Below are positions 98-36,866 of a DNA stretch of 36,866 nucleotides, piece after piece (within the stretch, counting starts at the first letter, position 1; every line of letters begins with the position of its first letter). The notes under the pieces were generated by a model. That model did not search any database and was not told the origin of the DNA. It was given only the letters and a program-made list of their open reading frames with translations. The position numbers and the translations under genes were made by a program. Origin of the DNA: a virus; IMG/VR virus record IMGVR_UViG_3300037333_000202, positions 1 through 36,866 of that record, one strand, 5' to 3'.

Positions 98-136
98 ATG
101 CAAATAAGAATTTATTATGAAGATACAATTTTATAG
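98..136 (+). pseudogene. 5' stub of host YbgC-like thioesterase, cut by prophage integration
   Basis: ATG at 98 encodes MQIRIYYEDT, then two phage-derived codons and TAG at 134. The same RIYYEDT sequence opens the thioesterase at 36728, where it continues [11 protein letters not shown]. The stub is thus the native start of that gene, separated from its body by the prophage. In the uninterrupted attB allele the protein should read [14 protein letters not shown]. The stub itself is too short to have a function. Confidence 0.85.
110..127. other. attL core, 18-bp direct repeat
   Basis: ATTTATTATGAAGATACA here is identical to 36740-36757. One mismatch (A here, G there) precedes it, and outside it the two sites diverge. 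The core lies inside codons 5-10 of the thioesterase gene. It marks the left host-phage junction. Confidence 0.9.
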
Positions 137-21345: not shown

Positions 21346-21451
21346 AAAAAGTAAACCAAATCATAAAAAGTAAACTTTTACTAAAAAAGTAAACTTAACC
21401 TAAACACCACAATTCATAAGCCCATAAAGCTTTTTATTGTAAAAAGTAAAC
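21346..21451 (-). repeat. GTTTACTTTTT direct repeats, candidate terminase (cosB R-type) sites
   Basis: AAAAAGTAAAC on the plus strand lies at 21346-21356, 21365-21375, 21384-21394 and 21441-21451. Intervals are 19, 19 and 57 bp (3 x 19). All are in the same orientation, in the 221-base gap between the small terminase gene and the Z-like gene. In lambda the corresponding place, between cosN and Nu1, holds the R-sites bound by gpNu1. Confidence 0.7.
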
Positions 21452-22104: not shown

Positions 22105-23175
22105 CTACTTACTCTCTTTGTATAATTTTTTCACAAACTCCTCTCCAGCATCAGGCATGAGGTGAGCATATCGCAAAGTCATCTTAATGTCAGCATGGTT
22201 CATAAGCTTTTGCATCTTGTCAAGAGGAGTGTTGTTAAGTGCTAAGTGAGAAGCATAAGTATGCCGAAGAGTGTGCATTCTTACTCTTCGCTTATCTTTC
22301 GGGCTTAATCCTTTATTGAACAATCTATCAAGTACTTTTTTAAACGCATTATAAAAAGTATGATAAGAAGTTCCTCCACATAAAATATCTTCATCAAAAT
22401 CTATAAAAGCATCATATATTTTTTTATTTATAGGGTTTGTATAGAAAGAACCTCTTTTAATGTCCTCTATATTTATATTCATATTTTTAAAGTCTATATC
22501 TCTTTTTTGTATCCGTAGAATGCTTGAAGCTCTTGCACCTACCCCGAGAGCAAGTATGACAAAATTGTAAAAATATTTATTATCTTTAACCGTTTTTTCT
22601 AACAAAGCAATCTCTTCCATGCTTAGAAATCTAGTTCTTGTATTATCAACTTTCAATTTTTTTAAATCCTTAAATGGAGAATATTCGATAATTCCCTTTT
22701 TTACTCCAAAATTAACTATTGCAGTCAAGATTCCAACAATATCATTGTTGTACGCATCACTTAACTTTTTATCTTTTAACTTTTTTTGTAGCTTTGTAAC
22801 GTCTATGTCTTTTAGACTCATCACGATTCTCTTATCGAGATACGAAAGATGCTTATTGTACTTTTGCTCTGTTTTCTTCCAGGAGCGATTATGAAGCTCT
22901 GCCCAATCAAAATACTCTGCTGCCAATTCTCCAACTTGAACCATGTCGCTATGAACACCTGTACCGTACTTTGCTTTATCAATCAATTTTGCTCTTTGCT
23001 CAAAAGCTCTTTTTTCTGTCCAACCATTTGATTTTTTTCCAATAGGTTTTAGAAATTTTTTACCAGCAACTTTATAGGAGACATAAAAAGTTATCTCTTT
23101 GTTCTCACCATGATATAGCTTTACTTTCGCACCATACTTTTTAGAGTTTGTCCACTTGGGTTTTTTTACCCCCAC
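22105..23175 (-). CDS. Tyrosine recombinase inside the late cluster
   Basis: The 356-residue protein has all catalytic residues of the family: Arg215 (GVGARASSIL), Lys240, His301-x-x-Arg304-His305 (HTLRHTYASH), His327 (MNHADI) and Tyr336 (LRYAHL). Residues 75-175 form the SAM-like core-binding domain. GTG at 23175 is the start, with AGGGG 6 bases upstream. It is far from either attachment site and lies between lysis and packaging genes. Alternatives to a second integrase are a resolvase of multimers or an inversion enzyme; no inverted cassette is evident. Confidence 0.9.
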   Translation of the reverse strand: MGVKKPKWTNSKKYGAKVKLYHGENKEITFYVSYKVAGKKFLKPIGKKSNGWTEKRAFEQRAKLIDKAKYGTGVHSDMVQVGELAAEYFDWAELHNRSWKKTEQKYNKHLSYLDKRIVMSLKDIDVTKLQKKLKDKKLSDAYNNDIVGILTAIVNFGVKKGIIEYSPFKDLKKLKVDNTRTRFLSMEEIALLEKTVKDNKYFYNFVILALGVGARASSILRIQKRDIDFKNMNINIEDIKRGSFYTNPINKKIYDAFIDFDEDILCGGTSYHTFYNAFKKVLDRLFNKGLSPKDKRRVRMHTLRHTYASHLALNNTPLDKMQKLMNHADIKMTLRYAHLMPDAGEEFVKKLYKESK

Positions 23176-25742: not shown

Positions 25743-26056
25743 CTATTATATCTCTATACTTCTTTGCAGTATTGAAGCTTACTTTTGCCTCTTTTGCAAC
25801 AGAGTAAACAGTTACTTCCCCCCCCCATAAATCTTAAAATATTAATAGCACTTTCTATCTTTCTCTTTGCATTGTTTTCTCTTGTTTGGGTTGCTTTCTT
25901 GGTCGCTTTTAGCTTTTTTGTTGATGTAGCTTTAAATTTTTCAATCTCTATCTTTTCTATTAAATCAGAAACAACTTTAAAAGTATAACTCCCCTGGTAA
26001 GCAGACTGAATCTTTTTAAGAGCCAAGTACTCATCTTCTGTTATGACTACTCTCAC
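25729..26056 (-). pseudogene. Winged-helix regulator interrupted or phase-varied at a G9 tract
   Basis: GTG at 26056 overlaps the previous stop (TAGTG). Residues 1-76 read normally (MRVVITEDEYLALKKIQ... INILRF). At the G9 tract (25826-25818) the current frame continues as MGGGSNCLLCCKRGKSKLQYCKEV and stops at 25754. With eight G the frame gives MGGEVTVYSVAKEAKVSFNTAKKYRDIIERVS, a good helix-turn-helix, and ends at 25729, exactly against the convergent gene, for 108 residues in total. Seven G would stop at once. Poly-G tracts are known slippage switches in Campylobacterota, so phase variation is as likely as a dead gene or a base-call error. Confidence 0.75.
25818..25826 (-). repeat. G9 homopolymer in coding sequence
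   Basis: Nine C on the plus strand (nine G in the mRNA) between codons for RFM and the alternative C-termini. G8 restores the helix-turn-helix frame, G9 gives a Cys-rich tail and G7 or G10 gives an immediate stop. Confidence 0.9.
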
Positions 26057-26868
26057 TACAGTACCCTACCACTCTTCTTAAAATTCTCAAGCATCAGCTT
26101 CCAAACTCTGTTATTGTACTCGTCTGTACAGTAAGCTCCACCCTCTTTAAAAACAGGGTACCCGAACTGATTGATAACCATGGGGTAAATAACTCCTTGG
26201 TTAGCTATATCTTTCTTTGTAAATCTTATGCTCTTACGATCTTCATCGCTCATCTGCTTTAAAAAGAGTCGCATCTCTTCAATTGTAGTCGGATTTGTTA
26301 CTTTTTTCTCTTTTTGTTTTGTAGGTCTTTTAATGTTCCTTAGCCATTTGTTCATAAACCTCTCTAGTGCAGGTTCCCACTTTGATACCCTCTTCCACTC
26401 GGTCTCTTCTTGCTTAAGCCAAAAATCTTCAGCTATCTCTATGGCTAACTCTTTAGAAATGCTTTTCTCTTCCCCTATCTTTACGGCTGCTGCTTTTACA
26501 TCGTTTTGACTTGGGTCCCCCTTTTTTGAACTTTTTGTGTCTTTCCCAAACTCTTTTTCATCTTTCAATTTTTTAGGAATTTTACGCTGGTTAAGGCTTA
26601 GAGCATACTTGAACTCTTTGCCAATTTTTAGCTGGAACTTCTTATTTTGTCTTATGAAGCCTCTTTTTATTAGACTTGCGACAATCTTCTTCATTCGGTC
26701 ATAAGAGAGCTTGTGATGCGAAGCCAGTTCGGCTCTGGTCACATCAGAGTACTCGCCATCTTCAAGCAGTCTACAAGAAAACTCTATATCTTCGCAAACC
26801 ATCCACTCTACAGGGTTTAAACCTACTGCATCCATTGCATCGTAATCTAAGTTATAGTAACGTTTCAT
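26056..26868 (-). CDS. Winged-helix protein, probable replication initiator or helicase loader
   Basis: The 270-residue protein starts with NPVEWMVCEDIEFSCRLLEDGEYSDVTRAELASHHKLSYDRMKKIVASLIKRGFIRQNKKF (18-78), a helix-turn-helix with wing like those of phage O/DnaD-type replication proteins. A basic disordered linker (93-130) and a helical domain (137-180, WLKQEETEWKRVSKWEPALERFMNKWLRNI) follow; the latter resembles the end domain of DnaT/DnaD-like proteins. Early position behind the Cro-like gene fits a replication role. ATGA overlap with the previous gene shows coupling. Confidence 0.75.
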   Translation of the reverse strand: MKRYYNLDYDAMDAVGLNPVEWMVCEDIEFSCRLLEDGEYSDVTRAELASHHKLSYDRMKKIVASLIKRGFIRQNKKFQLKIGKEFKYALSLNQRKIPKKLKDEKEFGKDTKSSKKGDPSQNDVKAAAVKIGEEKSISKELAIEIAEDFWLKQEETEWKRVSKWEPALERFMNKWLRNIKRPTKQKEKKVTNPTTIEEMRLFLKQMSDEDRKSIRFTKKDIANQGVIYPMVINQFGYPVFKEGGAYCTDEYNNRVWKLMLENFKKSGRVL

Positions 26869-27477: not shown

Positions 27478-27768
27478 CTACTCCTCCTCTGTAGCTTGTG
27501 ACAACTCATCATCTTTTAAAAAATCAGGATTTTCTTTTAGCCATTCATGAATATTTTTCCATGCTCTACATGGAAAAGCGTATTCCTCTTCAATGGCAAT
27601 AGCTTTTGTTAAGTCGGGTCGAGTTTTATGTTGCCATACTTTGTCAATCGTATTTTTATTACTGTATCCGATATTTTGCAACATTTTTTCAAAGCGTTTA
27701 CCTACTTCTGATTTACGAATTTTTGTTTTTTCTGCTCTTTTCATGTCGTATGGTAATATTTTTACCAT
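27478..27768 (-). CDS. Cro-like regulator
   Basis: The 96-residue basic protein is divergent from the S24 repressor, as Cro is from CI. EVGKRFEKMLQNIGYSNKNTIDKVWQHKTRPDLTKAIAIEEEYAFPCRAWKNI (21-73) fits a Cro/CI-type fold: the end, TKAIAIEEEYAFPCRAW, is like the A-x-RIE-x3-GIPxRxW pattern of small Xre-type repressors. Its ATG is inside operator O1 (27750-27768), so repressor binding should block this gene. Confidence 0.75.
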   Translation of the reverse strand: MVKILPYDMKRAEKTKIRKSEVGKRFEKMLQNIGYSNKNTIDKVWQHKTRPDLTKAIAIEEEYAFPCRAWKNIHEWLKENPDFLKDDELSQATEEE

Positions 27769-27803
27769 TTATCTAAACTTAAAAATAGTAAAAATACAAC
27801 CAT
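27750..27803. promoter_or_regulatory. Left operator module, oR-like (two 19-bp sites)
   Basis: O1 ATGGTAATATTTTTACCAT (27750-27768) is a perfect dyad ATGGTAA-5-TTACCAT. O2 ATAGTAAAAATACAACCAT (27785-27803) is a weaker version. Centres are 35 bp apart with a 16-base spacer. The module recurs inverted at 29928-29981. It lies between repressor and Cro-like genes. Confidence 0.85.
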
Positions 27804-27813
27804 TAGTTCATGT

Positions 27814-27848: not shown

Positions 27849-28577
27849 ATGTTTGACCACAAGAATTTTTCAAAAATATTAAAAAAAAATAAAATCTCAT
27901 CACAAAAATTAAGTGACATCTTAAAAGACCATGGTGTTACACTGGGGAAAGACTCTGTAGATGCGTATAGAAAAGGAAATGTTCAGGCACCAAGATATGA
28001 TATATTAAGTCTGGTCGCATCTCTTTGCAATGCAAATGTTATTGATTTTTTTGAGAATCGTAATGAGATTAAGGCAGATATAGTAAAAAATGAACTAAAA
28101 AACAACCTAGAAGAGTACCTCCCTCTTCTCCCCTCAAAGCTCATTCCCCACACCATCAAACAAATAAAAGTAACCAAGGGGTACCCTTCTGTTGCAGAAC
28201 GAATTGTACAGGAAGACACAATGAACTATGCAACACAAATATTTATTGACAAAAGAATGGTGCTAACAGCTTACCAGGACAAAGAGCTAGAAGCCGTGGT
28301 AATGATAGGCGACTCCATGAGTCCTTATCTGCAAAACGATGACATCGCCATTTGGCACCCCACATCAGAACCTCTAGGTGATGGACGCTATGTCATCAAC
28401 ACCCCACACGGTTTAACGGTAAAAAAACTAAAATTTATGAGCGACGGCTCCATTTTACTTATAAGTGAAAACCCCGACTATAACACAAACGGCACCTACG
28501 ATGAGAAGTTTAGTAAAGATATTGCCGATACATTGGAGATTTACGGTTTAGTAGTGGGAAGAATTTTAAAGAGTTAA
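27849..28577 (+). CDS. Phage repressor with S24 peptidase domain
   Basis: The 242-residue protein has an N-terminal helix-turn-helix (ISSQKLSDILKDHGVTLGKDSVDAYRKGNVQAPRYDILSLVASL, 16-59) and a C-terminal LexA/CI-type S24 domain with Ser156 in MIGDSMSPYLQNDDIAIW and Lys192 in GLTVKKLKF as catalytic pair. It should hold the prophage silent by binding ATGGTAA-type operators and be cleaved or inactivated in the SOS response. No clear Ala-Gly or Cys-Gly cleavage site is visible in the linker, so induction may differ. It is the main lysogeny gene. Confidence 0.92.
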   Translation: MFDHKNFSKILKKNKISSQKLSDILKDHGVTLGKDSVDAYRKGNVQAPRYDILSLVASLCNANVIDFFENRNEIKADIVKNELKNNLEEYLPLLPSKLIPHTIKQIKVTKGYPSVAERIVQEDTMNYATQIFIDKRMVLTAYQDKELEAVVMIGDSMSPYLQNDDIAIWHPTSEPLGDGRYVINTPHGLTVKKLKFMSDGSILLISENPDYNTNGTYDEKFSKDIADTLEIYGLVVGRILKS

Positions 28578-29008: not shown

Positions 29009-29104
29009 GGGTTATTTTTAACCCCTGCTGGGGGTTATTTTTAACCCCTGCTGGGGGTTGTTTTTAACCCCCCTACTTTTTACCAATGGGTTGTTTTTAA
29101 CCCC
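29009..29104 (+). repeat. Four GGGTT(A/G)TTTTTAACCCC repeats
   Basis: Copies start at 29009, 29032, 29055 and 29088 (intervals 23, 23, 33). Each unit is itself a dyad. The junctions AACCCCTGCTGGGGGTT form alternative stems followed by ATTTTT or GTTTTT on the plus strand, which look like two or three intrinsic terminators in a row. They could also be iterons. Confidence 0.75.
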
Positions 29105-29215
29105 CTTTTGGTTACACCAGGGAAAGAGAAGTAAAAGAGGTAGTTTTTTTTATTTTAAAGAGTTTTTGTAAGGTTTAGAAGTAAATAAAAAGAGAAGAGA
29201 GTTCTAGCAGATCAT

Positions 29216-29268: not shown

Positions 29269-29511
29269 CTATTTGTTGTATTTTTTACGCCATCTATTGC
29301 AAGAGCTTTTGTCGTAACCACTTCCACCCTCTAGACACTCACATGCTTCACCATCTTTGTCGCCGTCGAGTCGTTTCCACCCTGCCCCTTTAGCTTTAAA
29401 GTACTTTTGTGCTTCACTCTGAGTAGAGAAGTCCTTGCAGTGTTTTGCTTTTGCATGAAGAACCGATAAGCTCAACAGAAAAATAAGTAGAGCTGTTGTT
29501 ATTTTTTTCAT
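29269..29511 (-). CDS. Secreted excalibur-domain protein (moron)
   Basis: From ATG 29511 (AAAGGA upstream) the protein is 80 residues: signal peptide MKKITTALLIFLLSLSVLHA, then the excalibur calcium-binding domain CKDFSTQSEAQKYFKAKGAGWKRLDGDKDGEACECL with the DGDKDGEACE loop. The C-terminus is CNRWRKKYNK. Such domains occur in small exported proteins and nucleases. Standing alone, isolated from phage operons and flanked by a terminator, it looks like cargo expressed from the lysogen. The ATG at 29544 is less likely. Confidence 0.85.
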   Translation of the reverse strand: MKKITTALLIFLLSLSVLHAKAKHCKDFSTQSEAQKYFKAKGAGWKRLDGDKDGEACECLEGGSGYDKSSCNRWRKKYNK

Positions 29512-29610
29512 GATAATCCTTTTTTTCTTAAAACTATACTCCAAAAAAATAAAACATCCCTTTTTTTGTTTACCCTACTCTCTCTATAGGAACCAAAAAA
29601 AAATCATACC

Positions 29611-29820
29611 GTTACTTTTACTTGATTCAAGTTGATTCAAGTGGTTTGAAGTTGGTTCAAGTGAAATACATTGAAACCAAGTGACTTTAAATGAAATAAA
29701 ATGATACCCACTGAAACCAAGTGACTTTAAGTGGGTAGCACTGACTTTAAGTGATACGCACTGAAAAAAAGTAACAAAAAGTGTGTATAAGTGACTTTCA
29801 ATGACTTTTAAGGCTTGAAA
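29611..29820. repeat. 21-unit degenerate decamer array in strict 10-bp phase
   Basis: Units of exactly 10 bp run from GTTACTTTTA (29611) to AGGCTTGAAA (29811) with no insertion or deletion. The consensus is about GTGACTTTAA. The last base is A in all 21 units, the second is T in units 1-20 and the third is G in 16 units, while positions 4-8 vary. The perfect copies GTGACTTTAA are at 29681 and 29721. One face of the helix thus shows (A)NTG every turn. The array adjoins a 16-bp hairpin and the right operator module. Confidence 0.9.
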
Positions 29821-29857: not shown

Positions 29858-29892
29858 AAGTGACTCTCACTTATTTTAAGTGAGAGTCACTT
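29858..29892 (+). terminator. Perfect 16-bp hairpin with T-run
   Basis: AAGTGACTCTCACTTA (29858-29873), loop TTT, TAAGTGAGAGTCACTT (29877-29892), then TTT. It is a likely intrinsic terminator for rightward transcription, insulating the right operon. The stem contains the AAGTGACT word of the decamer array, but out of phase by one base. Confidence 0.75.
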
Positions 29893-29927
29893 TTTAAAAA
29901 TTGGAGAAAATGAAAAAAATTTAAAAA

Positions 29928-29981
29928 ATGGTAATATATTTACTATTTTTAAGTTTAAATAAATGGTAAATATATTACCAT
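29928..29981. promoter_or_regulatory. Right operator module, oL-like inverted copy
   Basis: ATGGTAATATATTTACTAT (29928-29946) and ATGGTAAATATATTACCAT (29963-29981), 35 bp centre to centre, form the reverse-complement arrangement of the module at 27750-27803; the 16-base spacer matches at 15 of 16 positions. The copy also includes the start codons of a 15-codon reading frame (29963-30010, MVNILPLYQQNEKRF) like the Cro-like start MVKILP. It should put the rightward genes under the repressor. Confidence 0.85.
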
Positions 29982-30176
29982 TGTATCAACAGAACGAAAA
30001 AAGGTTTTAAAAAGAGCTTTTGAGTTTTGTAAGATATTTAACATTTCACTCCGTTTTGCAGTCCAAACGGAAGCGTAAGAAAACAGCTCTATGCGTAGGG
30101 TTGTTATTTGTACTACTTTAATGGAGAGCAGTTAGGGTGGTAATTTCAAAAAAGACATTTACAAGAGGAATATTAA
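29982..30176 (+). other. Leader of the rightward operon
   Basis: There is no gene beyond the 15-codon frame. A hairpin CCGTTT (30051-30056)/AAACGG (30065-30070) with an 8-base loop is the main structure seen. The region leads into the small gene at 30177. Confidence 0.5.
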
Positions 30177-30332
30177 ATGAAAAAGATTAACTTAAAAGCA
30201 AAAGGTTTTTTTAACTTTAATGAATTGCGAATAGCAAACAACATTTCGTTCCGATGGTCACATAAAGTCAATCTCGACACGACTTCGGACACCATTGCAA
30301 CTACTCCGAAGTCGTATCGTCCTATAGATTAG
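30177..30332 (+). CDS. Small leader protein of the rightward operon
   Basis: The 51-residue frame MKKINLKAKGFFNFNELRIANNISFRWSHKVNLDTTSDTIATTPKSYRPID has AGAGGA 8 bases before ATG. No family was recognised. Its last third overlaps two of three mutually complementary segments (30280-30344), so translating ribosomes would affect which hairpin forms, as in an attenuator. It may be a regulatory leader peptide or a small functional protein. Confidence 0.6.
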   Translation: MKKINLKAKGFFNFNELRIANNISFRWSHKVNLDTTSDTIATTPKSYRPID

Positions 30333-30386
30333 GTCGACTTCGGAAACCCTTTGTAAAGTAGATAAAAAATCTATTTTACAAAGGGT
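30280..30386 (+). promoter_or_regulatory. Attenuator-like alternative hairpins
   Basis: CGACTTCGGA (30280-30289), TCCGAAGTCG (30305-30314) and CGACTTCGGA (30335-30344): segment 2 can pair with 1 or with 3, not both. Next comes an 18-bp stem, ACCCTTTGTAAAGTAGAT (30346-30363) with ATCTATTTTACAAAGGGT (30369-30386), one G-U pair and a 5-A loop. It ends 34 bases before the gene at 30421. There is no U-run, so control of translation or processing fits better than intrinsic termination. Confidence 0.65.
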
Positions 30387-30420
30387 GTAAAAACCCTAAA
30401 AAATTACAAGGAGTCCAGAA

Positions 30421-31005
30421 ATGGCAAACGAAAACAAAGACAGAAACAATAGTAGCAATACTACTAAAGAGGTATTAACTACATCGGCAAAGAAAAAGCT
30501 TGTAAAAGCAATTTGTCAAGAGTATCATTCAAAGCTAGATGCAAAAGCACCCAGAGTTAAAAGAGACTTGAACTATTCACAAATTAAAGACGTAATGTTC
30601 CTTAATGATGCAACAAAGGAAATCTTTAAGAAGCTTGCTTTTGATGAAAAGATTGACCCGAGAGATTCTCTTGAAAAATGGAGACCAGAAGTTATTGCAG
30701 AGTTTAAAGGTCATTTCAAATTTGATGCAAGTGAGGAAGATGTTGAAGACATTCAAATAGAGCTTGGTGCTGGTTATGAAAAATGGTTCAAAGAGAACTT
30801 TCCAGAAAGTAAGAAAAAAGTAAGCCCTGCAAACATTAGAGTAAGTGATTTTCTAACATATATGGGAACCATTAAAAAAGATTCTCCTTTACCGAATCTC
30901 GTTAAAGATGGTGTGGTTGACCTTACTGGATGGAAGCTAAAGGACCTTAAGATGGAGGCTTTAAATAATTGTAGAACATTTTTGGGAGAACAAAAAACAG
31001 CCTAG
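30421..31005 (+). CDS. Unknown soluble protein, first of a three-gene set
   Basis: The 194-residue charged protein has no recognised domain. Its parts are a disordered start (MANENKDRNNSSNTTKE), helical KKKLVKAICQEYHSKLDAKAPRVKRDLNYSQI, and WRPEVIAEFKGHFKFDASEEDVEDIQIELGAGYEKWFKENF. AAGGAG precedes ATG 30421. It is followed after 10 bases by the membrane protein gene with AGGAGG. Repressor-controlled position suggests expression in the lytic cycle. A cytosolic partner of the membrane proteins is a guess. Confidence 0.85.
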   Translation: MANENKDRNNSSNTTKEVLTTSAKKKLVKAICQEYHSKLDAKAPRVKRDLNYSQIKDVMFLNDATKEIFKKLAFDEKIDPRDSLEKWRPEVIAEFKGHFKFDASEEDVEDIQIELGAGYEKWFKENFPESKKKVSPANIRVSDFLTYMGTIKKDSPLPNLVKDGVVDLTGWKLKDLKMEALNNCRTFLGEQKTA

Positions 31006-31015
31006 GAGGTAAGTG

Positions 31016-32428
31016 ATGAAAGATGAAAGTCAAAACTCCACGCTTGAAGATGTAAACCTAAGAGTCGAAGAGGGTCTAAAAGAGATAGAGGATTTAATCC
31101 CTGAAGACCCTATATCGGCTGCAACAGGTGCAAAAATAGGTTCTGAGGAGCATACCCAACAAGGGGAGCTTCTCAGCAAAGTAAAAGCAACAAACTCAAC
31201 AAAAAGAGTCAACCGTATATTAACCATTTTAACGTGGGTTGGCTATGTTGGATTATTTATCTCAACCATCGTAAAGTTTACAGGTATTGTATATGACATA
31301 AACTTTCATGTTCCTTTTCTCTCTAAAGTTATTGGCGTAAGTGGTCTTTATAGCTTAGGCTTGTTTATAACTATTATCGTTACTGTAATGACACACGTTA
31401 CATCTGACGGATTAGTAAATAACAAGTGGAAAGCGATTAGTAGACTAATACTCGTTTGGATAGCCATGCTTGGTATATCTGCTTCTTTCTACTTTGATTA
31501 TAGAGCTATAACAAATTATACTACCATGGTAGTTGAGGAGATAAAGCTCGACAAAATAAAAGATGGTACAGATGTTGATGGTGTTGCTGTTAAAACAGTT
31601 GAAGATGGCGTTGCTTTACTAAAAAACTCTATAGAGATGTACACAAAACAGATAAATGCTGGGCAATCTAGGCTTTATGATATCGCTGAGCAAAAAAATG
31701 CGATAAACGAATCTATAGATAGAGTTAAAAAGCAAAAAGAAAAGATAAAGAGTAACAAAACCATTAGAAAGTTAAATCAAAATATCTACACTTCTAGAAA
31801 GCAACTTGAGACTCTAATCGAAGAAGAAAGAGAGATAAATGCGAAACAAAAAGAGCTTATGAGTTCCATTGAGTCAATACAAAACAAAATAGAAGAAAAA
31901 TCAAAAGAGAAGAGTTCTATATTAAATGATGTTGACAGTAAAATGAAAGATAATCAACATGATAGACTTATCTTCTTATTTGTCCTGGTGATATTTATTG
32001 AGGTCACTTCATTCGGTGGTCTTTTGGCTGACTTTTTAGGCAATAAAAATCTTGAAGCTGACTTGAAAGCAAAAATAGACCAGCTAAACAATAATACAAA
32101 TGCTATGGATGTTATTCGAGGTCATTTAAATGCTTCTGAAGTACAACAAGCAAGGAACTTTGATAGAGAACTTACAATGAGGGCTTCCATCTCAGAGGTT
32201 CATGCGTTATCTTCTATCGCAAATATGCATCGACAAGCTGAAAATGTAAAGAGTCTTACTCAAGCAACCCATCGGATTGGAGAAGCAACACAAGAAGTAA
32301 CCAAGATGGCAGTTGAAGGAATTTCTTCTAGCATACAAGCAAACCTCGCAAACAAGCGAGTTAAAGCCCTACAAGAACTGATTGATAATGGAATAGTAAA
32401 CAATGAGATAGAGCTTAAAAATGAATAG
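31016..32428 (+). CDS. Four-helix membrane protein with long coiled coil
   Basis: The protein is 470 residues from ATG 31016, 6 bases after AGGAGG; GTG at 31013 is too close. Membrane helices lie at about 66-90 (ILTILTWVGYVGLFISTIVKF), 103-125 (VIGVSGLYSLGLFITIIVTVM), 140-160 (LILVWIAMLGISASFYF) and 322-345 (LIFLFVLVIFIEVTSFGGLLADFL). Between helix 3 and 4 is a coiled coil of about 100 residues (QINAGQSRLYDIAEQKNAINES...EEEREINAKQKELMSSIESIQNKIEEKSKEK). The C-terminal 110 residues are soluble and helical. No family was recognised. Confidence 0.88.
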   Translation: MKDESQNSTLEDVNLRVEEGLKEIEDLIPEDPISAATGAKIGSEEHTQQGELLSKVKATNSTKRVNRILTILTWVGYVGLFISTIVKFTGIVYDINFHVPFLSKVIGVSGLYSLGLFITIIVTVMTHVTSDGLVNNKWKAISRLILVWIAMLGISASFYFDYRAITNYTTMVVEEIKLDKIKDGTDVDGVAVKTVEDGVALLKNSIEMYTKQINAGQSRLYDIAEQKNAINESIDRVKKQKEKIKSNKTIRKLNQNIYTSRKQLETLIEEEREINAKQKELMSSIESIQNKIEEKSKEKSSILNDVDSKMKDNQHDRLIFLFVLVIFIEVTSFGGLLADFLGNKNLEADLKAKIDQLNNNTNAMDVIRGHLNASEVQQARNFDRELTMRASISEVHALSSIANMHRQAENVKSLTQATHRIGEATQEVTKMAVEGISSSIQANLANKRVKALQELIDNGIVNNEIELKNE

Positions 32429-33098
32429 TCAACAACCTATCCCACTACTTATTTATACAAATCTTCAGCAAGACCCATCTACTATTTTTAAAGATGGACA
32501 GGTGAATTTAAAGAGCTACAATCTAACTCACAATGGATACTCTATTGAAATAGCTGATAGTAATTCTGTAAGTAAATTAATAACTGACATGAGTAACTAT
32601 TACATGAAAGAACTTGATGTTCTAGAAAAAGAGTCCATAAAGATAATCTCTTCATTGCAAAGGCAACTTCAAAATGAAAAGAGCAAATATGAAACACTTA
32701 GTAAAAACTTAGAAAAGGAGCATGAACAAAAATTAGCACAATACCAAAAGGCAATCGAAGAGAATGCAAAGTATAAAGAATGGTATGGAACCCTAGTGTC
32801 TCCCATACTTATTATAAAAGAACTATGGAACGAAGGAACCAAAAAAGAACTAGATCTCCTTGTTCCTCCTAGTTCATGGAAAACTGGAAAAGGACTAGGT
32901 GGAGAAGCAGGAACAACAGCAAAAAGATATTGGCTATCCATGTTTATGGAGTGGAAAATGATAAAGCAGTGGGGAAGAGGTAAATATATGGCAAATATGG
33001 GCATGTATGAAGCCTTGGAACTTTTAAATAAGATGATGAAAAAGCAGGGTCTTATCCCTGATGAGAAGGGATTAGAGAATGAAAAAAGGTCTAGCTAA
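32421..33098 (+). CDS. Unknown coiled-coil protein, third of the set
   Basis: The 225-residue protein overlaps the membrane gene by 8 bases. The N-terminal 60 residues look like a beta-containing domain (IPLLIYTNLQQDPSTIFKDGQVNLKSYNLTHNGYSIEIADSNSV). A coiled coil follows (70-115, EKESIKIISSLQRQLQNEKSKYETLSKNLEKEHEQKLAQYQKAIEEN). The end has KTGKGLGGEAGTTAKRYWLSMFMEWKMIKQWGRGKYMANMG, glycine- and tryptophan-rich. No family was recognised. Overlap implies fixed stoichiometry with the membrane protein. Confidence 0.85.
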   Translation: MNSQQPIPLLIYTNLQQDPSTIFKDGQVNLKSYNLTHNGYSIEIADSNSVSKLITDMSNYYMKELDVLEKESIKIISSLQRQLQNEKSKYETLSKNLEKEHEQKLAQYQKAIEENAKYKEWYGTLVSPILIIKELWNEGTKKELDLLVPPSSWKTGKGLGGEAGTTAKRYWLSMFMEWKMIKQWGRGKYMANMGMYEALELLNKMMKKQGLIPDEKGLENEKRSS

Positions 33099-34336: not shown

Positions 34337-34688
34337 AGAAAAAAGCAATAGTTTCCGTGTTAAAAACATAGAATTTACAAAAACAAAATATAAAAATGCA
34401 ATTCAGATGTTTAAAGTATTTGAAGATAGAGGGGTAAGAGATATTAATATTAGCCGATTTGGAAAAGAGATAACAAAAAAAACAAATGAAGAAAAAATAC
34501 TCTTTTTCCTTGCTGATATACTGAATGAGTTTTTCATAGAATCATTCAGTAATGATTTTTTGCTTGGGAAGATAAATGGGATTGAGAAAATTTATATCTA
34601 TTCAGATTTTACGGGAAATTATAACCTCCCATATATATTTGCTGAATTAGAGGAAATAGTTAAAAATAGAATCGTACATAAGGAATAA
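34329..34688 (+). CDS. Unknown soluble protein
   Basis: The 119-residue charged protein (FRVKNIEFTKTKYKNAIQMFKVFEDRGVRDINISRFGKEITKKTNEEKILFFLADILNEFFIES...) was not recognised. It overlaps both neighbours (8 bases upstream; TAATG downstream) and lies in the operon leading to the excisionase-like gene and integrase. Confidence 0.78.
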   Translation: MSKEKSNSFRVKNIEFTKTKYKNAIQMFKVFEDRGVRDINISRFGKEITKKTNEEKILFFLADILNEFFIESFSNDFLLGKINGIEKIYIYSDFTGNYNLPYIFAELEEIVKNRIVHKE

Positions 34689-35020
34689 TGATGTCAATAA
34701 ATTCAAAGGTAATAGAAGTAGTAGACACAGCTCTCTTTAAAGAGCAGCTACAAAGGGCAGATGTAGTTTTGCCTTTTGTAACTAAAATTTTAACCAACAA
34801 AAAGAATATCGCAAACTTTTTAGGCGTCCATCCAAATACCATAAGCAATTATATTAAAAACGGTACGTTTAAAGAGGGGGTTCACTATACATACTTACCG
34901 AAGGGAAAGTTAACATTTATTCCTCTTGAGATAATTGATTTTAAAATCAACAAACCAAAAATACAAGTTAAAAAAGAGTATGTGCCTTGTGAAGAGGCGA
35001 AGGAGCTTTTAGGATGCTAA
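34688..35020 (+). CDS. HTH protein, putative excisionase
   Basis: The 110-residue protein (109 from the second ATG at 34691) has NKKNIANFLGVHPNTISNYIKNGTFKEGVHYTYLPKGKLTFIPLEIIDFKI (37-87), a MerR/AlpA-like winged helix typical of recombination directionality factors and small regulators. A later VKKEYVPCEEAKELLGC tail overlaps the next gene. Its position two genes before the right-end integrase supports an excisionase role; this is inference. Confidence 0.72.
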   Translation: MMSINSKVIEVVDTALFKEQLQRADVVLPFVTKILTNKKNIANFLGVHPNTISNYIKNGTFKEGVHYTYLPKGKLTFIPLEIIDFKINKPKIQVKKEYVPCEEAKELLGC

Positions 35021-35287: not shown

Positions 35288-36463
35288 ATGCCTTTGGTTA
35301 AAGCTTTAAAAGGGAAAAGCATTATGAAAAATAAACCAATATATTATGAAAATGGTGGAATAAAATTTACTATATATATTCAAAACAATAGATATTATTT
35401 AGACTTCTATAAGACAGACGGCACACGCATAAGAAAATCTACTAAAAAAATAGCAACAAAAGAAAACTTACGTTACATCAAGATGCAACTTATACCCGAC
35501 ATACTCATTCTGATGGGAGAAGAACCCACCACAAATTCAGAGAAAAAAGAGTACACGGTTGAGGAGTGGGCATTAATCCATTTCGATTTACAAGAAGGTA
35601 AAAATAGACCTCAAACTATTAAAAGAAAAAAGCAACATTTCTATAAACATATTTACCCAATCTTTGGCAAACGCCTTGTTAGCTCCATTGGTTACTTGGA
35701 TCTACAGCAATGGCAAACAGATATCTTAAAAAAAAACTATAAAATAGAGACCATTAGCACTTATAGAGCTGTATTCTTCGGCATTTTAGAACATGCAGTT
35801 AAAGCAGATATTATTCATAAAAACTATTTTATCTCTGTACCAAGCCCAAAAACATTTACTAATTTACCAAAAGAGCAGCAAAGAGAAAAACTAAATCCTT
35901 TCACAAATAAAGAGATAGAGCTTATGCTCAGTAATGCAGATGGCTATATGCACAACTTTATTAAATTAATGCTCTCTACTGGCATTCGACCAGGAGAGCT
36001 TATTGCACTTGAGTGGGAAAATATTGACTTCAAAAGAAGAGTCATAAAAATAACAAGCACTAGAAACCGAGCCATAGAAAACGACCCAAAAACAAAAAGC
36101 TCCAGCAGAGAAGTAGATATGCTACTAAATGCTAAAGAAGCTCTTGAGTCTCAGCTTGAGCTAACGAGAGAGGAGGAGAAGATTTTTATGAGTATGTTCC
36201 ATAAACCTTTTTATTCGCATGATATTATCGCCAAGCTCTTCAAAGAGCTACTTATTAAAATAGGAATAGAGCCAAGACCTCTTTATAATCTAAGGCATAC
36301 ATTCGCATCACAAGCAATTACCAAAGGGGTAAACATCTTGTGGGTAAGTCGAATGCTGGGACACAAAGATATAAGCGTCACGCTACAAGTCTACACTAAG
36401 TTTATTGTCGAAGACGATGAGCAAAGACTAAAAAATATAGAGAAACTCGATAAGATTTTATAA
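35288..36463 (+). CDS. int: Phage integrase (tyrosine recombinase) at attR
   Basis: The 391-residue protein has an Arm-binding-like N-terminus (ITFYIQNNRYYLDFYKTDGTRIRKST-type strands, 25-52), a core-binding domain (88-185) and a catalytic domain with Arg234 (STGIRPGEL), Lys270, Arg336-His337 (YNLRHTFASQ), His359 (MLGHKD) and Tyr369 (QVYTKF). The first His of HxxR is Tyr333, a variant seen in some integrases. It lies 277 bases from the attR core, so it is the natural enzyme for this insertion. ATG 35324 (MKNKPIYYENG) is a possible alternative start. Confidence 0.93.
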   Translation: MPLVKALKGKSIMKNKPIYYENGGIKFTIYIQNNRYYLDFYKTDGTRIRKSTKKIATKENLRYIKMQLIPDILILMGEEPTTNSEKKEYTVEEWALIHFDLQEGKNRPQTIKRKKQHFYKHIYPIFGKRLVSSIGYLDLQQWQTDILKKNYKIETISTYRAVFFGILEHAVKADIIHKNYFISVPSPKTFTNLPKEQQREKLNPFTNKEIELMLSNADGYMHNFIKLMLSTGIRPGELIALEWENIDFKRRVIKITSTRNRAIENDPKTKSSSREVDMLLNAKEALESQLELTREEEKIFMSMFHKPFYSHDIIAKLFKELLIKIGIEPRPLYNLRHTFASQAITKGVNILWVSRMLGHKDISVTLQVYTKFIVEDDEQRLKNIEKLDKIL

Positions 36464-36727: not shown

Positions 36728-36866
36728 TTGAAAGTTAGGATTTATTATGAAGATACAGACGCAGGAGGAATTGTTTATCATACCAACTACATAAAATACT
36801 GTGAACGTGCAAGATCTGAGCTTTTCTTTTCTAAAGGATTAAGCCCTACTGATGGTGATCAAAGTG
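36728..36866 (+). CDS. ybgC: YbgC-like acyl-CoA thioesterase, 5' end supplied by the phage (partial)
   Basis: The first 46 residues from TTG 36728 read (M)[45 protein letters not shown], with the [23 protein letters not shown] signature of hot-dog-fold thioesterases; the Asp of TDAGG is catalytic. The gene runs off the window. An in-frame TAG at 36716 leaves TTG as the only usable start, with AGGGG (36717-36721) 6 bases upstream. Codons before the att core come from the phage and replace MQIR by (M)KVR. Members act on acyl-CoA near the Tol-Pal envelope genes. Confidence 0.9.
36740..36757. other. attR core, 18-bp direct repeat
   Basis: ATTTATTATGAAGATACA, identical to 110-127. It lies within the first codons of the thioesterase gene and marks the right prophage end. 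Confidence 0.9.

Follow-up and report, generated by a model that had tools for sequence, protein, structure and literature searches.

What is the function of a run of 21 contiguous decamers that lies beside the immunity switch of a prophage? The DNA analysed here (the window) is an IMG/VR virus record of 36,866 bp, and the decamers occupy positions 29611 to 29820 of its plus strand. Judged from sequence, the array most likely provides docking sites for a viral protein that would start DNA copying, and the protein that would bind to it is a candidate only.

Decamer array

The array is confirmed to exist as the earlier note described it. When its units are listed, 21 decamers follow each other back to back over 210 bp with zero indels. 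In a 200-bp scan over periods 7-15, the periodicity maximum is period 10 at position 29611 (score 0.271), while the top score of 60 dinucleotide shuffles over all of these periods is 0.11. Autocorrelation, which the earlier note had proposed as a check, gives a peak at lag-10, with identities of 0.57 at lag-10, 0.55 at lag-20 and 0.57 at lag-50, and of ~0.2-0.35 at other lags. The consensus is approximately A(G/C/A)TGANTTNA, with TGA on the plus strand. Position 10 is A in all 21 units, position 2 is T in 20 of 21 and position 3 is G in 16 of 21, as had been claimed. Positions 4-8, which had been said to vary freely, are variable but not quite free, because position 4 is A in 14 of 21 units and position 6 is A or T only. 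The remaining columns agree in 7-14 of 21 units. Conservation is thus uneven across the columns, with an A-G-T-G-A core.

The units abut directly and have no unique spacers between them, and the array is therefore not a CRISPR. It is not coding either, in agreement with the earlier note. The plus strand contains 6-9 stops in each frame. On the minus strand one frame stays open for 84 codons, with a codon score of -0.07, as compared with 0.22-0.34 in the accepted neighbouring genes, and permutations of the units yield an open frame in ~2-14% of cases. This frame is ruled out as a present-day gene by its gene-unlike codon score and by its frequency in permutations, but it could be the relic of an in-gene array.

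Location of the array in a prophage

The window probably represents a complete integrated prophage, because an exact 18-bp direct repeat, ATTTATTATGAAGATACA, is present at both ends (candidate attL, 110..127; candidate attR, 36740..36757) and the sequence past the right copy resembles a host thioesterase-type gene in a frame read by eye. Repeats of the AAAATAGACAA type flank both att repeats. The left 25 kb carries mainly minus-strand structural and lysis genes. A cI-like repressor with an S24 peptidase domain is encoded at 27849..28577 (+) and is flanked by inverted operators, OL (27749..27804) and OR (29926..29982), which are 88% identical to each other. The genes at 27478, 26865, 26056 and 25754 lie leftward of OL. 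A rightward operon of the genes at 30421, 31013 and 32421 (30421..33098, +) lies downstream of OR and is conserved in the closest relative, G001. The array is located between cI and OR, to the right of an Excalibur-domain gene.

This Excalibur-domain gene (29269-29544) is a mobile moron; its counterpart in G001 (L096:12291-12476) is 85% identical and is located elsewhere in that phage, after the terminase gene. Two tyrosine integrases are encoded, one at 22105-23175, which relatives also carry in their late region (identities of 75% and 59%), and the other at 35288-36463, near the right att repeat. The product of 34688..35020 (+) is an HTH_17/excisionase-like protein (HTH_17, E=0.0014; phrog_66 'excisionase and transcriptional regulator', E=0.0013).

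The prophage terminase is less than 60% identical to that of any phage record, and the intergenic region gives no match in blastn against phages. Single-sequence searches of viral contigs and plasmids with the 30421 product detect no relatives, its predicted structure (pLDDT 63) shows no informative fold, and genome contigs scanned for the operon protein and for the terminase yield no confirmed relative. For this group of uncultivated prophages, which has no close relative among named phages, the array offers a concrete candidate origin.

Sequences adjacent to the array

The earlier note had placed the array next to an AT-rich stretch, a perfect hairpin and the right operator, and all three are located here, the operator through its inverted copy. 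The hairpin (29858..29892, 38 bp to the right of the array) has the structure AAGTGACTCTCACTT-ATTTT-AAGTGAGAGTCACTT with a 15-bp stem. It contains four AAGTGA array cores, two per strand, and, on both strands, gives the array matrix its best match beyond the array itself. It may be a terminator between the array and the rightward operon; an Rfam search with it gave only implausible sub-threshold matches. The AT-rich stretch (29889..29988) is among the top 0.1-0.3% least stable DNA of the window. Its lowest-stability 60 bp (29917-29976) is within the least stable 0.1% and lies ~100 bp from the array. This stretch is a candidate unwinding element, but OR is located within it, ~100 bp from the array end, so that its AT-richness is also explained by the operator.

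A DnaA-box-like sequence, TTATNCACA (29782..29790, -), is the sole match in the window and lies inside the array. It was dropped as a sign of an origin, because approximately one such match is expected by chance. The GC skew minimum at 29-30 kb was likewise dropped, because gene orientation explains the skew. Downstream of cI (29009-29130), four terminator-like hairpins are formed on GGGTTATTTTTAACCCC, the first ones at a 23-bp period.

Comparison with the relative G001

G001 (46 kb) shares the terminase, integrase, lysis genes and right operon with the window, with identities of up to 82-85% for structural genes and 50-59% for the right operon. The array is absent from G001, in which the best four-unit score of the array matrix is 9.5, as compared with 36 in the array. 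The early leftward module of G001 also differs, encoding a DnaB-type helicase, assigned by reading of the sequence, and a 300-aa protein. The gene for the latter contains six 11-bp repeats, ACTGCACCCCA, arranged as two triplets in the linker. The 300-aa protein matched no family, and we infer from its position and repeats that it is an initiator.

The corresponding candidate in the window is the early winged-helix protein of 270 aa encoded at 26056..26868 (-), which matches DnaD_N (E=0.0063) and an Lrs14-type wHTH (E=2e-4). From these matches it may tentatively be regarded as a replication initiator that binds to the array. No iterons are found inside its gene, which is 2.7 kb from the array. 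Single-sequence searches of viral contigs, phages and plasmids detect no homologues of this protein, its predicted structure (pLDDT 47) shows no confident fold, and a DnaB_C gene is not found in the window. The simplest account of the difference between the two phages would be a swap, in which an initiator with internal iterons in G001 corresponds to an initiator with a separate array in the window. This account rests on two phages, because no further relatives of the 26056 product are found.

Similar arrays in other viral contigs

Viral contigs were scanned with patterns for TGA-core and ANTGA-core decamers, so that the arrays compared here are selected by motif. Many unrelated degenerate arrays are present among the matches listed. 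All seven of the listed degenerate decamer arrays that lie in a long ORF are in the linker of a replication-initiator-like gene, as called by sequence and layout, whereas neither of the two in-ORF arrays listed in a control scan with the reversed motif is in such a gene; both numbers are small. PHROG supports L176, L197, L195 and L127, the last of which was found separately, as initiators (E 1e-8 to 1e-32) and gives a weak match for L167; L138, L085 and L174 have no PHROG match and are judged by sequence and layout. Replication initiators and helicase loaders top the neighbour families of the TGA set, in which TubZ is included, while terminases top those of the control set, in both cases among the matches listed. 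In two P4-like contigs (L049 and L052), a decamer array lies just beyond the 3' end of a P4-type primase gene, which is the position of crr in P4. Eight genes of named phages match the L195 or L176 initiators; their strongest periodicities are at 11, 21 or 22 bp, and several of these are weak. AT-rich DNA does not lie consistently on one side of the in-gene arrays.

In L137, L153 and L160 a decamer array is located near a phage TubZ-like gene, and this array is of the TCTGATTTAC type in L137 and L153. That of L137 is upstream of a small wHTH/TubR-like gene. These loci are likely phage type III partition loci. Because their arrays share the form of the array studied here, form alone cannot decide the function. 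Decamer tracks locked in spacing but relaxed in sequence are thus found in phages that are unrelated to each other, at modules for replication or segregation.

Comparison with known systems

The closest sequence match is to phage P4, in which the 'ori type 2 repeats' (NC_001609, 9176-9205) are three contiguous decamers, CTTTAAGTGG/CTTTAAATGA (complement), that match the array units. When P4 is scanned with the array matrix, these decamers are the first match (score 24.7; maximum of 200 shuffles, 18.3), and when the window is scanned with the P4 matrix, the array ranks first, so that the two are reciprocal top matches. The P4 repeats are close to an AT-rich stretch, as is the array. They consist of three units, however, as compared with 21 in the window, and the window lacks both the alpha primase/helicase and the type 1 repeats of P4. 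No function of the type 2 repeats was found described in the literature searched. They are located ~150 bp upstream of vis and could be excisionase sites. Because vis is on one side of them and the type 1 origin repeats are on the other, the P4 match cannot separate an origin from an RDF operator.

Lambda-O/DnaD-like phage initiators resemble the system proposed for the window in having an early winged-helix protein and tandem repeats near one helix turn (10, 11 or 21 bp). The lambdoid O origin is the source of this comparison for in-gene iterons (PMC7466680). The array consists of tandem iterons at fixed spacing, but it differs from these origins in that it is outside the initiator gene, lies in the immunity region and has more units. 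Of the winged-helix N terminus, linker and loader-binding C terminus of such initiators, the 26056 product shows weak wHTH and DnaD_N matches only. The array is not classed as a lambda-type in-gene origin, but only as one that would work like it, because it is 2.7 kb from the gene.

Operators of RDFs (Apl, Cox, Xis and Vis) are also direct repeats of one helix turn with relaxed sequence in a switch region. Apl of phage 186 has seven operators, arranged as direct repeats 10-11 bp apart between pR and pL; their consensus is loosely conserved, specificity is low and cooperativity is strong, and other RDFs are similar (PMC7498355). If protomers bind head-to-tail, one to each turn, as is documented in excisionases such as Apl (PMC7498355), a strict period together with a loose sequence is explained. 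The P4 decamers and the excisionase repeats therefore contradict the earlier note, which knew of no described phage element with such a form. The form of the array has precedents; its length and its place are unusual.

Possible role of the array as a replication origin

We give an even chance to the proposal that the array is a set of iterons in the replication origin, recognised by the early winged-helix protein encoded at 26056-26868. Upon induction, the early leftward operon would produce this protein, which would bind to the A-N-TGA core of each decamer with one protomer per helix turn on a single face of the DNA. Specificity for a single site would be weak and cooperativity between neighbours strong, which may be why spacing is better preserved than sequence. 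The nucleoprotein filament so formed would open the AT-rich DNA at 29889-29988 and let in a helicase, probably that of the host because no DnaB-type gene is found, so that replication would start at the array. In a lysogen, the repressor bound to OR could block the opening of the origin, because OR sits inside the AT-rich stretch.

An origin is the best supported of the readings offered by the earlier note, being favoured by the comparative evidence, the putative swap between G001 and the window and the low-stability DNA beside the array, while the assignment of the 26056 product as its initiator is weak. Against it, the array is outside the candidate initiator gene, unlike the in-gene examples. 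Should OR indeed be part of the unwinding element, replication could be shut off directly by the repressor. It is a speculative extension, and an improbable one, that the unwinding element is itself the repressor operator, such that the repressor seals a 21-unit initiator track and one cis-element serves both immunity and replication control, and that decamer tracks of this degenerate, helically phased kind form, in general, a common unnamed class of cis-elements in phage replication modules.

Alternative roles of the array

The array may instead be an RDF operator, on which a small HTH protein of the Xis/Cox/Apl/Vis type, with the 34688-35020 product as the candidate, polymerises head-to-tail and regulates one or more early promoters. 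This is the main rival to an origin, but we regard it as unlikely. The shared repeat spacing and relaxed consensus, the location in the immunity region ~100 bp from OR, the excisionase-like candidate and the P4 decamers upstream of vis agree with it, but known RDF operators have 3-7 sites and matching att sites, while 21 units are present here and a scan with the array matrix reveals no conspicuous tandem units of the array type in the vicinity of the att repeats or of the two integrases, although weak sites may exist there; the repeats at the att flanks are of the AAAATAGACAA type. Moreover, excisionases are absent from the 25 neighbour families listed for similar arrays, in which replication families are present. 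It is less probable still that another early regulator, of a late-activator or KfrA-like kind, uses the array as a multi-site operator and activates or represses the rightward operon. KfrA binds to five unspaced 9-bp repeats (PMC7783346), ~100 bp separates the end of the array from OR and the rightward operon, and an array of TGTGACTTTC decamers in L105 follows a phrog_36 regulator gene and precedes a terminase gene. However, the hairpin that may be a terminator separates the array from the operon, and the array-less G001 conserves the operon together with its three genes. The L105 array itself (777-840), which is upstream of HNH and terminase genes, is possibly the operator of a late activator.

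Decay of a neutral 10-bp minisatellite is an improbable origin of the array, slightly more so than an early-regulator operator. Perfect 10-bp minisatellites do exist in the viral contigs L003, L058 and L079, and duplication of whole units within the array accounts for part of its similarity (TRF period 50). However, conservation of the columns is more uneven than in simulated neutral tandem duplication at matching divergence (P ~0.005-0.015), and no indel has accumulated across 21 diverged units. A centromere-like partition site of the TubR, ParR or RHH type, the last of which the earlier note had considered, is the least probable role and quite doubtful. ParR and TubR assemble into helical complexes with DNA that carries short direct repeats (PMC5016525), ParR of pB171 binds to 10-bp direct repeats (PMC9426499), and TubZ genes adjoin the similar arrays of L137, L153 and L160. 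The window differs from these tubC/parC systems in that it gives no match for a tubulin-like TubZ or a ParA partner, and the array is therefore not assigned to a type III or type I partition locus; a ParM-type search gives matches nowhere, controls included. The prophage is also probably complete and integrates, and the RHH-like 25528 product has a distant relative (29% identical) in G001, which lacks the array. These results weaken the centromere reading.

Other elements of the prophage

At 21346-21404, beside a small-terminase-like gene, a 19-bp repeat, AAAAAGTAAACTTAAACTA, is present in approximately three copies and is possibly a packaging site. The leader of the right operon (30256-30420) contains strong stem-loops, ACGACTTCGGA...TCCGAAGTCGT, and the leader in G001 (L102:13450-13700, -) contains the stem-loops AGCTCTTCGGA...TCCGAAGAGCT. 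Both leaders keep a TTCGGA/TCCGAA core while the flanking pairs are changed, and the stem-loops possibly represent a conserved RNA element.
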